IMG/VR virus record: IMGVR_UViG_3300030451_004837 | Location: 1 to 28,311 of that record | DNA from: a virus | Length of the DNA stretch: 28,311 nt | Direction: 5' to 3' (one strand) | Part shown: positions 17,685 through 21,993 of the stretch, piece by piece | How positions within the stretch are numbered: position 1 is the first letter of the stretch | Layout of the letters: each line of letters opens with the position of its first letter | Notes under the pieces: model-generated | Told to the model about the DNA's origin: nothing | Databases searched by the model: none | The model's input: only the letters and a program-made list of their open reading frames with translations | Translations under genes and position numbers: made by a program

Positions 17685-18123
17685 ATTCAATGTTTTTGGT
17701 TTCAATCATTTTGTCATTGGTGTCTTGTGCTCAGTCATTTTGAGTTGCACCCCTGCACAGCGTGAAGAGTTGAAGAAAACTGCATTCACGTCACTTGATT
17801 GCAGTCTGCACAGCAGTCTTGGTTGCGCTGGACAGGCAGCAGGCGCATGTGCTTTGCCGTCTGTTGATGGTGGCAATTGGGGCACATATGCTGAATGTCT
17901 TTCACACACTGCACAGGGATGCATGACAAAAAGCCTTGCAAGGTGTGCTCTTGCAGGCGTTGCAAGTCTTGTTTCAGGTCCTATTGTAGGCGGGAGCACA
18001 GGTTGCGGTTCAGATGTTCACGCTGAACAAGTGCAACTGTGCGTGGGTGGAAAGGAAATCAACAATCAGCACCAGGCAATGACTGCTGCTGCTGAGTGCT
18101 GGCGGGATGTTTGCGGGTTCTAG
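17641..18123 (+). CDS. Cys-rich probable lipoprotein (outer spanin candidate)
   Basis: A 160-residue protein with a hydrophobic segment FVIGVLCSVILSC ending in a lipobox-like ILSC at C36, so the mature protein would begin with lipidated Cys. The mature part has eleven cysteines, probably disulfide-linked outside the cytoplasm. The TTG at 17641 has GGAG seven bases upstream; ATG 17668 is an alternative (lipobox Cys 27). It starts inside the membrane-protein gene, as outer spanins do, but is longer and Cys- rather than Pro-rich, so the spanin role is uncertain. The stop shares CTAG with the opposite gene. Confidence 0.6.
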   Translation: MHVWKAGWSMRNCSEFNVFGFNHFVIGVLCSVILSCTPAQREELKKTAFTSLDCSLHSSLGCAGQAAGACALPSVDGGNWGTYAECLSHTAQGCMTKSLARCALAGVASLVSGPIVGGSTGCGSDVHAEQVQLCVGGKEINNQHQAMTAAAECWRDVCGF

Positions 18124-18458
18124 TATTCTTTGCGCTGTCCAATTGTGATGGCACCATCAGCAAGCCCTGACCATTCAACATATATTGAATACGCTGTCAT
18201 TGGACAACCATCACCATCATTGTTGTTGTAGAACAACCCACCAGATGCGCCGAATGTCTGTGTTTTTAGCGTGTGAGCAGTTGAAGCAGATGACCCTGAA
18301 TCACCCAGGACTTTCACATTGACTGTGCAAGCTGGTGAAGATCCTGTTGCCTGAAAAAAAACCTGACCCGTGAAAAGCTTGTATCCATCGACCACAAAAG
18401 TGGTGTTGCCTGAAGCAGCAGTTGAACCCTGCACAGGCAATTCAAAACGTGTTGCCAT
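18120..18458 (-). CDS. Beta-rich, virion-like protein on the minus strand
   Basis: A 112-residue protein with an AAGGGGAT ribosome site. It is strand-rich, full of S, T, G and A, with two cysteines, and resembles small phage structural proteins of unknown role in composition (FVVDGYKLFTGQVFFQATG, then YSIYVEWSG). It is isolated between the late plus-strand operon and the early region. It is convergent with the lipoprotein gene and shares its stop tetramer CTAG at 18120-18123. No family is recognised; it might be a decoration or surface protein with its own control. Confidence 0.72.
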   Translation of the reverse strand: MATRFELPVQGSTAASGNTTFVVDGYKLFTGQVFFQATGSSPACTVNVKVLGDSGSSASTAHTLKTQTFGASGGLFYNNNDGDGCPMTAYSIYVEWSGLADGAITIGQRKEY

Positions 18459-18474: not shown

Positions 18475-18488
18475 TTGATTGCAATCAA
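18475..18488. promoter_or_regulatory. 14-bp perfect palindrome, possible operator
   Basis: TTGATTGCAATCAA is its own reverse complement. It lies 16 bases upstream of the minus-strand start at 18458, in the divergent intergenic region. Its location suggests an operator controlling the minus-strand gene. No partner repressor is assigned, but the phage has two helix-turn-helix proteins. Confidence 0.45.
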
Positions 18489-18556
18489 AAAACAAATTTG
18501 TCTTCTGACTATACACCACCACGCTGAAAAAGCATCACAAAGAAAAAACGCACAAA

Positions 18557-18601
18557 ATGCACATTTGTTGTTGACGGGTATGTGCACATTGTGCATATAA
18601 T
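18557..18601 (+). promoter_or_regulatory. Early promoter with overlapping inverted repeats
   Basis: TTGACG (18571-18576) and TATAAT (18596-18601) form -35 and -10 boxes with a 19-base spacer, slightly long. The spacer contains ATGTGCACAT (18580-18589), a perfect palindrome. ATGCACA at 18557-18563 and TGTGCAT at 18590-18596 form an additional inverted pair with the same half-site. Binding there would block polymerase, so this is a likely autoregulated operator. The downstream leader ends in AAAGGAG before the ATG at 18643. Confidence 0.7.
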
Positions 18602-18642
18602 GGGACATCAACAAAGGGCAGGAGCCCAAAGGAGCAAGCAAA

Positions 18643-19041
18643 ATGGAAAACGTAAAATTAAAAGAAGAAATGACCAAAACAGAAATCTTGAAATCAATAA
18701 CCCTTGAAGATGTTGGGCTGACCGAAGCACACAAATTTGACGAAATCAAGAAAGTTTTAGGTTCTGCAATCGATGACGGGCATGATGCTTTCCATCATAA
18801 TTTCATTTATGCTGCTTTTCCGCATGATTATTTTTTTGTATCCAACAAAGAGGCAAACGATTGGCTTGGGTCGGCTGATGCTCTTTGTTTGAAAATTGTG
18901 GAGCAGACAGATGAATTTGATGCCCTTGGTTTGTATTACATAGAGAATACAAATTATGCAGCCACAAGATACATTCACGTTGTTGCTCAGTTAATTCATG
19001 AGCGATTGGTAGAAGAACTGGACGCCATTAACTGCAACTAA
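18643..19041 (+). CDS. Acidic early protein, unknown (anti-defence candidate)
   Basis: A 132-residue, acidic, mostly helical protein, first in an operon behind the operator-rich promoter. AAGGAG lies eight bases before the start. Residues 14-45 are helical, and residues 48-68 are aromatic (AFHHNFIYAAFPHDYFFV). Its codons use more T at third positions (CAT, GAT, TTT, TAT) than neighbouring genes, a hint of separate origin. No known family is recognised. Because the operon ends with an Aca-like helix-turn-helix gene, it is a candidate anti-CRISPR or other anti-defence protein. Confidence 0.75.
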   Translation: MENVKLKEEMTKTEILKSITLEDVGLTEAHKFDEIKKVLGSAIDDGHDAFHHNFIYAAFPHDYFFVSNKEANDWLGSADALCLKIVEQTDEFDALGLYYIENTNYAATRYIHVVAQLIHERLVEELDAINCN

Positions 19042-19047
19042 TCACCC

Positions 19048-19063
19048 GCCCCCTTCGGGGGGC
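19048..19063 (+). terminator. UUCG tetraloop hairpin
   Basis: GCCCCC TTCG GGGGGC is a perfect 6-bp stem closed by the very stable UUCG loop, seven bases after the stop at 19041. There is no T-run after it (ATACTTTC), so it may be a weak terminator or an mRNA-stabilising 3' element that gives the first gene more transcript than the regulator gene downstream. Confidence 0.55.
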
Positions 19064-19089
19064 ATACTTTCAAAAAAGGAGCAAGCAAG

Positions 19090-19239
19090 ATGAAAAATAA
19101 AAAAGTTTATACTGTGACAGTTGTGAAAGGGCTGATGTGCAGAAAATATTACGTTGAATTGACACTTGAAAAAGCACGTGAAATTGCAATGAGACCAGAA
19201 GTCAGGTGTGTGTGTTTGATTGAGGGAGGTCTGTCATGA
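19090..19239 (+). CDS. 49-residue early protein, unknown
   Basis: A 49-residue protein beginning MKNKKVYTVTVVKG, with two predicted strands, a helix (LTLEKAREIAM) and a final strand, that is, a small alpha/beta fold. The ribosome site AAAAAAGGAGCAAGCAAG closely copies that of the first gene of the operon (AAAGGAGCAAGCAAA). The stop overlaps the next start (ATGA), so it is coupled to the helix-turn-helix gene. Function unknown. Confidence 0.65.
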   Translation: MKNKKVYTVTVVKGLMCRKYYVELTLEKAREIAMRPEVRCVCLIEGGLS

Positions 19240-19451
19240 ATCATTGTCAACGTCTTCAGGAGTGGATGAAGGCAGCAGGTTTGAATCAGCAGCAGGCTGC
19301 TGAAGTCTTTGGTGTGAAGAAGCGTTGTCTTCAGTATTGGTTGCATGGTCGTCAACTACCAGGACCCGCAACACAGTTGCTTTCTGTTTTGGAATCACAC
19401 CCGATGATTCAATCATTTCTTTTGTCCAGTCACACATCAGAAACCCCCTAG
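19236..19451 (+). CDS. Aca1-like helix-turn-helix regulator
   Basis: A 71-residue DNA-binding protein with a helix-turn-helix at residues about 8-40: KAAGLNQQQAAEVFGV, then a recognition helix and QYWL. The pattern of AGxxQxxAAE, a YxL-type end of the recognition helix and a P-x-T-x-x-L motif near the C-terminus resembles, as I recall, Aca1-family repressors of anti-CRISPR operons, which are of similar size. GGGAGG lies upstream. It closes the operon and is a good candidate to bind the inverted repeats at 18557-18596. It could also be a generic Cro-like regulator. Confidence 0.75.
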   Translation: MNHCQRLQEWMKAAGLNQQQAAEVFGVKKRCLQYWLHGRQLPGPATQLLSVLESHPMIQSFLLSSHTSETP

Positions 19452-19456
19452 AAATT

Positions 19457-19497
19457 GACCACCACCTGATTCAGACCATCTGTTTCAGGTGGTGGTC
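19457..19497. terminator. 13-bp hairpin between convergent transcripts
   Basis: GACCACCACCTGA (19457-19469) pairs perfectly with TCAGGTGGTGGTC (19485-19497), and the loop itself contains CAGA/TCTG pairing. It lies just after the regulator gene and before the convergent recombination gene. No long T-run follows on either strand, so it may be a rho-assisted terminator or RNA end. Confidence 0.65.
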
Positions 19498-19515
19498 GTG
19501 GTGCCTACATGGAGC

Positions 19516-19540
19516 AAAACAACCCCCAATTTGGTTGTTT
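19516..19540 (-). terminator. Terminator of the minus-strand recombination operon
   Basis: AAACAACC (19517-19524) pairs with GGTTGTTT (19533-19540) over 8 bp. Read on the minus strand, the stem starts within the stop codon of the 19539 gene and ends with a T-run (TTTT). This suits an intrinsic terminator for leftward transcription from the ATPase and exonuclease genes. Confidence 0.55.
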
Positions 19541-21254: not shown

Positions 21255-21557
21255 ATGAATTTGCGAATGTGGATCAAACAAACCGGGACAACACAAACTG
21301 AACTTTCAAAGCGTTCAGGTGTGCCTATTGCAACAATTCACCGGGTGCTGAATGGTCAGCAAGCATCAGCACCTGTTGCTTTGAAGCTATGGGAGGCAAC
21401 AGACTGTGAAGTGCATCTGTTGTCAATTCTGTACCCTAACGAGCGGTTTACATTGGCACTTGAAAGAGAGGTGCAAATTGAAGAACAAAAACAGGTGGAC
21501 AAAAGTTCCACACTGGTGGTTTCAGACCATCCACATGATCAATCTGAAAGAAGTTGA
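21255..21557 (+). CDS. Cro/CI-type helix-turn-helix regulator
   Basis: A 100-residue protein with an N-terminal XRE helix-turn-helix at about residues 5-35 (KQTGTTQTELSKRSGVPIATIHRVLNG), a near-consensus pattern. A C-terminal extension (residues 60-100) is acidic and polar. ATG 21255 is chosen over upstream in-frame starts inside the opposite gene. It heads the rightward replication operon and is divergent from the exonuclease, so it may control both. There is no CI-type cleavage domain. Confidence 0.8.
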   Translation: MNLRMWIKQTGTTQTELSKRSGVPIATIHRVLNGQQASAPVALKLWEATDCEVHLLSILYPNERFTLALEREVQIEEQKQVDKSSTLVVSDHPHDQSERS

Positions 21558-21993
21558 CCTGAAGTTGCTTCTGCTTCTGTGGAGCAATACAAAAGATGGC
21601 AAAGTGCCAGCAGACGCAAATGAAGCTGCGTTTCTTGCAGGGTACGGTCAAAAGCAAAAAACAAGCAGAATTGAACAAGCATTGAACACACTTCATGAAG
21701 TGGGGTTTTTGCAACGTGATGTTGAAGGCTATTTTTTTGCCGAATGGCAGCAAATTATGCGCAAGAAATTCGCAAAATTTCAGAAATCTTCCGCAAATTT
21801 CCGAAAACAAAACAAAGAAAAACAAGAAGTTGCGCAAGACACTACGCGTGCGCGTTTATATTCTCCTATAGAGAATATAGAGAATGACTTGAAAAACCCC
21901 CTTTTTGAGGGCGGGGGTTTTCAAGGTCAAGAGGGGGAAGAGTTAAACAAGCGAGCAATTGAAATCATGAAGGAAGTGAAGAATGAAAACTGA
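21535..21993 (+). CDS. Putative replication initiator/helicase loader
   Basis: A 152-residue protein upstream of and overlapping the DnaB-like helicase gene by 11 bases. The N-terminal 75 residues look like a winged helix (LLLLLWSNTKDGKVPADANEAAF... RIEQALNTLHEVGFLQ), as in phage replication initiators. The middle is K/R/Q-rich, and the C-terminus resembles the tail of helicase loaders. The ATG at 21535 is preferred because the upstream in-frame start lies inside the regulator and gives an odd Cys/Trp-rich N-terminus. Its coding DNA contains an origin-like repeat cluster. The function is inferred. Confidence 0.6.
   Translation: MINLKEVDLKLLLLLWSNTKDGKVPADANEAAFLAGYGQKQKTSRIEQALNTLHEVGFLQRDVEGYFFAEWQQIMRKKFAKFQKSSANFRKQNKEKQEVAQDTTRARLYSPIENIENDLKNPLFEGGGFQGQEGEELNKRAIEIMKEVKNEN
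21759..21925. other. Candidate replication origin inside the initiator gene
   Basis: Within the putative initiator gene are two near-direct repeats of T(T/C)CGCAAA-TTTC-GA (21769-21784 and 21790-21804), the string ACGCGTGCGCG (21844-21854), a 9-bp-arm palindrome TATATTCTC/GAGAATATA (21857-21865/21871-21879), and a long hairpin (21888-21901/21913-21925, 13 bp with one bulge). Iterons, an AT-rich palindrome and hairpins in the initiator gene mimic the lambda origin in gene O. No origin activity is shown. Confidence 0.4.

Follow-up and report, generated by a model that had tools for sequence, protein, structure and literature searches.

A phage operon with an Aca1-type operator core and two small cargo genes, probably autoregulated by a 71-aa HTH protein

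Introduction

Aca genes are usually found through protein similarity or through a neighbouring known Acr, and such searches miss operons in which both proteins have diverged. Here we ask whether a short operon in the IMG/VR virus record IMGVR_UViG_3300030451_004837, proposed from its sequence as a candidate anti-CRISPR (acr-aca) operon, is controlled like one, and whether it can be classed as one. The whole stretch analyzed, positions 1 to 28,311 of that record (28.3 kb), is referred to as the window. The operon is probably an early phage operon of the Aca type under negative autoregulation. Its control resembles that of an acr-aca operon, but it cannot be filed as one.

Results

Layout of the operon

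The window encodes a terminase, a portal protein, Sak4, a YqaJ exonuclease, DnaB and an endolysin; no tyrosine integrase was found in it. Searches of IMG/VR with Sak4, YqaJ and the major capsid protein returned no phage relatives, and Rfam and tRNA searches gave no match. The operon is on the plus strand and is flanked by two minus-strand genes, one at 18120-18458 and the other encoding Sak4. It adjoins the recombination genes Sak4 and YqaJ. Its promoter is followed by a gene for a 132-aa protein, a GC-rich hairpin, a gene for a 49-aa protein, the gene for a 71-aa helix-turn-helix (HTH) protein and a hairpin with 19-bp arms (Table 1). The start of the HTH gene overlaps the stop of the 49-aa gene (ATGA at 19236-19239). 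All three ORFs and the ATGA coupling are present as the sequence-only reading had described them, and the acr-aca-like layout that it had seen (promoter, small genes without assigned function, HTH gene last, hairpin) holds. In general, Aca operons are recognized as short runs of same-strand genes that close with an HTH gene and whose core promoter contains inverted repeats (PMC9765179, PMC9410906), a layout that this operon shares.

The claim of terminal hairpins was confirmed by the one between the convergent HTH and Sak4 genes, which is very strong (z -5.7; -43.5 kcal/mol for a 106-nt stretch). It has no clear T-run and is a probable bidirectional terminator. The hairpin between the cargo genes is a possible attenuator or mRNA end protector.

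Table 1. Features of the operon (positions in the window; a dot marks features without a strand)
Feature	Position	Strand	Basis
Possible second, degenerate operator GCACA-A-AATGC (8/10), upstream of -35	18550..18560	.	Read from sequence
Sigma-70 promoter TTGACG-N19-TATAAT	18571..18601	+	Sole 11/12 match in window; function inferred
Putative operator O1 TGCACA-T-TGTGCA, core GCACA-N-TGTGC	18583..18595	.	Perfect 6-1-6 palindrome in promoter spacer
Ribosome-binding leader AAGGAGCAAGCAA of 132-aa gene	18629..18641	+	Exact duplicate at 19076-19088
132-aa acidic protein, candidate cargo	18643..19041	+	Coding score in-frame only
GC-rich hairpin GCCCCC-TTCG-GGGGGC between cargo genes	19047..19064	+	Fold z -1.95; without T-run
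49-aa basic protein, candidate cargo	19090..19239	+	Coding score in-frame only
71-aa XRE-type HTH protein, autorepressor candidate, ATGA-coupled	19236..19451	+	PHROG, Pfam and PDB HTH matches
19-bp-arm hairpin between convergent HTH and Sak4 genes	19457..19497	.	z -5.65 / -4.10, two strands

A putative operator in the promoter spacer

The promoter elements TTGACG (18571-18576) and TATAAT (18596-18601) form the only 11/12 sigma-70 match in 28 kb, compared to a mean of 0.5 per shuffled window; within the 184-bp intergenic gap, 9 of 2000 shuffles produced such a match. The spacer of 19 nt is above the optimal length. The putative operator sequence within 18550-18605 is GCACATTGTGC. Its exact GCACA-N-TGTGC core (18584-18594) occurs once in the window, with no further copy at one mismatch, and base composition predicts about 7e-5 exact copies for the gap. 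The degenerate upstream site is part of a 15-bp inverted repeat (18550-18564/18580-18594) that was equalled in 8 of 500 shuffles. When arms were capped at 12, the inverted repeats of the gap were not significant (50 of 300 shuffles). The promoter repeats noted at first reading are thus found as this 15-bp repeat together with the perfect palindrome between the promoter elements.

The acrIF1-aca1 promoter of Pseudomonas phage JBD30 contains the palindromes GGCACA-C-TGTGCC and GGCACA-A-TGTGCC, the latter between TTGCGA and TAATCT. Since GCACA-N-TGTGC stands in the spacer in both phages, they have the same core in the same promoter place; note that this match was seen post hoc, after Aca1-like control had already been proposed by the sequence-only reading. 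By sequence, the HTH gene is thus preceded in its own promoter by an Aca1-type core.

The HTH protein and its relatives

The Aca1-like helix pattern earlier ascribed to the 71-aa protein is there. Its recognition helix reads KKRCLQYWL, compared to SDRVMRYYL in Aca1, and R30 aligns with Aca1 R44, a residue that Stanley et al. reportedly found to be critical in 2019. R30, Q33, Y34 and R39 also carry the same numbers as four of the five promoter-recognition residues listed for Aca2 (PMC9410881).

Membership in the Aca1 family was not borne out. With the profile of phrog_3865, the PHROG family of JBD30 Aca1, as a stand-in for AcaHMMdb, the match had an E value of 2.3e-4 over 30 of 74 positions (40% coverage), short of the AcaFinder cut-offs of E<1e-10 and >60% coverage of the Aca HMM (PMC9765179). 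Among its best PHROGs, phrog_3865 ranked behind phrog_2104 (2.7e-6), phrog_2328 (4.3e-6) and phrog_2967 (2.1e-4), and pairwise scores were higher for generic XRE proteins than for Aca1. A genome search for relatives returned four loci (three distinct), all encoding generic XRE/CI-type repressors. A broad alignment (A3) made for a degenerate scan showed too little conservation and was dropped.

By sequence, the PDB entries matched were MqsA (0.006) and Aca1 (0.024), the latter being the sole Aca. A confident AF2 model was built from nine sequences (pLDDT 85). Its top Foldseek match was Aca1 (7vjn), at a non-significant E value of 0.07 and from an input alignment that contained two Aca1 homologues. 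VIA placed HigA2 (Z 10.4) and MqsA (Z 8.9) above Aca2, Aca10, Aca1 and Aca7; Aca2, Aca7 and Aca10 were matched by fold at common Z values. We therefore rejected fold as a test of Aca membership, because this neighbourhood of HigA2, MqsA, Aca2, Aca10, Aca1 and Aca7 does not discriminate. The antitoxin HMMs for MqsA/HigA gave scores below their cut-offs (TIGR03830, 19.8 bits vs 61.8; MqsA_antitoxin, 21.7 vs 30).

The cargo genes

Both cargo ORFs have a positive coding score in their own frame and in no other. A 13-base leader, AAGGAGCAAGCAA, precedes each of them (18629-18641 and 19076-19088) and occurs exactly twice in the window; the twin leaders are suggestive of the duplication of a single unit. 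The 132-aa protein has a pI of 4.7, with 25 D+E vs 11 K+R. T-rich codon use, put forward earlier as a hint of separate acquisition of its gene, stood in part: a T3 of 0.36 is within the phage range, whereas synonymous codon usage is a clear outlier (z -4.8). The GC content of this gene is 37.6%, compared to mostly 43-50%, and its composition is consistent with separate acquisition. A second codon-usage outlier in the window (21439-21993, z -3.1) lies beside a second HTH gene (21255-21557).

Neither cargo protein had a match worth the name in Pfam, PHROGs, NCBIfam, PADLOC or the PDB, nor did either match an Acr family in NCBIfam or Pfam. Relatives of the 132-aa protein were not found in IMG/VR, GTDB genomes, or phage and plasmid records at the sensitivity used, nor were relatives of the 49-aa protein in phage records. 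DUF7222 (PF23864), which we presumed from its sequence pattern to be a candidate for the 132-aa protein, was rejected, as 454 of 2000 shuffled copies scored higher and the hhalign probability was 0.6%. An AlphaFold model of the 132-aa protein, computed without relatives, had a pLDDT of 37 and was discarded. An anti-defence role is in keeping with the acidity, the small size, the position and the mode of control, but the same features also fit any early host-takeover protein.

Occurrence of the operator in other viral contigs

A scan of IMG/VR found the operator inside a promoter in 53 stretches, compared to 8 for a composition-matched control palindrome. The two operator scans together gave 62 operator loci, 19 of which had an XRE HTH gene within 1.6 kb downstream; none of 8 control loci did. 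These counts include near-duplicate loci, use one control pattern and are partly circular, the HTH-finding HMM having been seeded in part with operator-linked HTHs. With the HTH of the window itself excluded, every one of the 14 non-redundant operator-linked HTHs had arginine at the R30 position, vs 7 of 21 other HTHs, from which Aca1 and three further operator-locus HTHs had been removed (Fisher 5e-5). Of the indirect evidence for binding of the 71-aa protein to its own promoter, that from the survey is the best.

The HTHs of L035 and L068 are Aca1 homologues. Several operator-linked HTHs are ATGA-coupled behind a small ORF, namely that of L035 and those of L075 and L082. At L035 (7016-7572), an operator promoter precedes a 90-aa gene that the Aca1 homologue overlaps by ATGA, making this an uncatalogued candidate acr-aca1 operon. 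The first gene behind the operator at L073 (1588-2055) encodes 155 aa and overlaps the start of the operator-linked HTH ORF; its N-terminus has a weak AcrIIA3-like match (NF033948, E 3e-5), below the cut-off. L055 and L063 have CGCACA-T-TGTGCG promoters in front of related small proteins (GYxTYxxIGNATLI.THAP.GEEVEYQVQTAGGLRSCYF) and HTHs of the RNWQQWELGER type.

Operator promoters without a nearby HTH precede genes that we labelled TilS-like, RecA-like and exonuclease-like by eye from their translations, and the operator is thus found at genes that are plainly not acr genes. The operator therefore may be bound by something else. Near-identical TTGACATTATAAGCACAATGTGCTATAAT-type promoters are found at L024, L037, L042 and L049, with no HTH within 2 kb, and there the operator serves some other regulator; at L024 the TTGACATTATAAGCACAATGTGCTATAAT-type promoter precedes a 111-aa gene, and a paralogue of that gene follows further downstream. 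As a rule, 'operator means acr-aca' was rejected, since an HTH within 1.6 kb was lacking at the majority of operator loci.

Discussion

We infer with good support, because the operator core is shared with JBD30 and the recognition helix carries the arginine, that the HTH protein binds GCACA-N-TGTGC and represses its own operon. Upon phage entry the near-consensus promoter would fire strongly, and the 132-aa and 49-aa proteins would be made. The last gene on the same mRNA would yield an XRE HTH protein that, as a dimer, would occupy the site between -35 and -10 and shut the promoter. Such a burst followed by shut-off would suit host-takeover or anti-defence proteins. As the likely binding site matches that of the Aca1 repressor, the operon appears to be switched on and off in the manner of anti-CRISPR genes.

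What the cargo does is less certain. An anti-defence function is plausible. It may be directed against something other than CRISPR (restriction, retron or toxin-antitoxin-based defence, or a host RNA polymerase or nuclease to be inhibited in the course of host takeover), a reading we hold tentatively. The same regulatory evidence applies to it, the codon outlier suggests separate acquisition, and small ORFan early phage genes often are anti-defence or host-takeover genes; however, PADLOC, Pfam, PHROG and PDB matches that would name such a function were absent for the cargo.

It is also possible, though doubtful, that the operon is an ordinary Cro-like control unit, in which the HTH protein governs the development of the phage, with the small genes encoding accessory regulators or inhibitors unrelated to defence. 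The best PHROG and genome matches are indeed generic XRE/CI-type repressors, the operon adjoins recombination genes, a comparable HTH gene comes first in the YqaJ operon of Exiguobacterium phage vB_EauM-23, and the window has its second HTH gene. Yet no tyrosine integrase was found in the window, and the operator core is confined to the operon promoter and absent from the other promoters of the phage. The HTH protein therefore looks like a local regulator, not a global one.

That the 132-aa and/or 49-aa protein inhibits CRISPR-Cas, with the HTH protein as a new Aca, is unlikely. The operon does pass as a short-gene operon under AcaFinder's rules (genes <200 aa on the same strand, gaps <250 bp; PMC9765179), it has an Aca1-type operator, L035 shows the same order of operator, small gene and Aca1, and the 132-aa gene has a foreign composition and an acidic product. 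Against this, NCBIfam and Pfam yielded no Acr homologue, the HTH protein scores outside the AcaFinder cut-offs, and Aca-like HTHs often occur where there is no acr gene (PMC9410906, PMC8434428). A toxin-antitoxin-like module with the 49-aa protein as toxin and an MqsA/HigA-type antitoxin is very improbable: the gene order with overlap and the HigA2 and MqsA fold matches would fit, but the 49-aa protein matched no toxin family, the HTH protein lacks an extension for toxin binding like the zinc domain of MqsA, and a resemblance to HigA2/MqsA is seen among Aca proteins as well (Table 1 of PMC9410906).

The probably autoregulated operon of Aca type matters in that its operator is better preserved than its proteins. 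If binding is true, the operator could serve as bait for counter-defence genes in uncultured phages, such operons being minable by operator instead of protein homology, and the 132-aa and 49-aa proteins, as well-defined candidates, could be put through a plaque or plasmid-protection assay at little cost. A more far-reaching proposal, for which we have limited confidence, combines two claims: that one or both proteins are the first representatives of a new family with an anti-defence function, possibly an anti-CRISPR one, under a new Aca with the Aca1 operator and a distant Aca1 sequence, and that the GCACA-N-TGTGC core promoter marks a wider set of operons (L035, L063, L068, L073, L075, L081 and L082). 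For anti-CRISPR activity specifically, our expectation is low.

Comparison with known systems

The closest known arrangement is acrIF1-aca1 of JBD30. There, too, one promoter serves a small gene and, behind it, an HTH gene that overlaps it, with one GCACA-N-TGTGC site between the -35 and -10 elements and another further upstream. Here, in contrast, the upstream site is degenerate and centred 34 bp away (25 bp in JBD30), and there are two cargo genes, neither resembling AcrIF1. The HTH protein shares with Aca1 the arginine at the R44 position and the YxL that follows, but is 40% identical over 30 residues only (tblastn E about 2), has Q19/Q20 where Aca1 has R33/R34, and does not have the extended loop of Aca1.

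Aca2 of Pectobacterium phage ZF40, also an autorepressor of a small operon, has R30, Q33, Y34 and R39 in common with the 71-aa protein. It differs in an extra C-terminal dimerization domain and in its promoter, which carries TTCGC..GCGAA, not GCACA. Generic XRE/CI repressors include the best overall match to the HTH, that of Olsenella (L020; 59% over 34 aa), but have glycine at the arginine position and are often longer and stand-alone. The IMG/VR loci L075 and L082 have a GCACA-N-TGTGC promoter, a small gene (145 or 85 aa) and an overlapping gene for a 60-62-aa HTH, the arrangement of the present operon with cargo proteins unrelated to the 132-aa protein.
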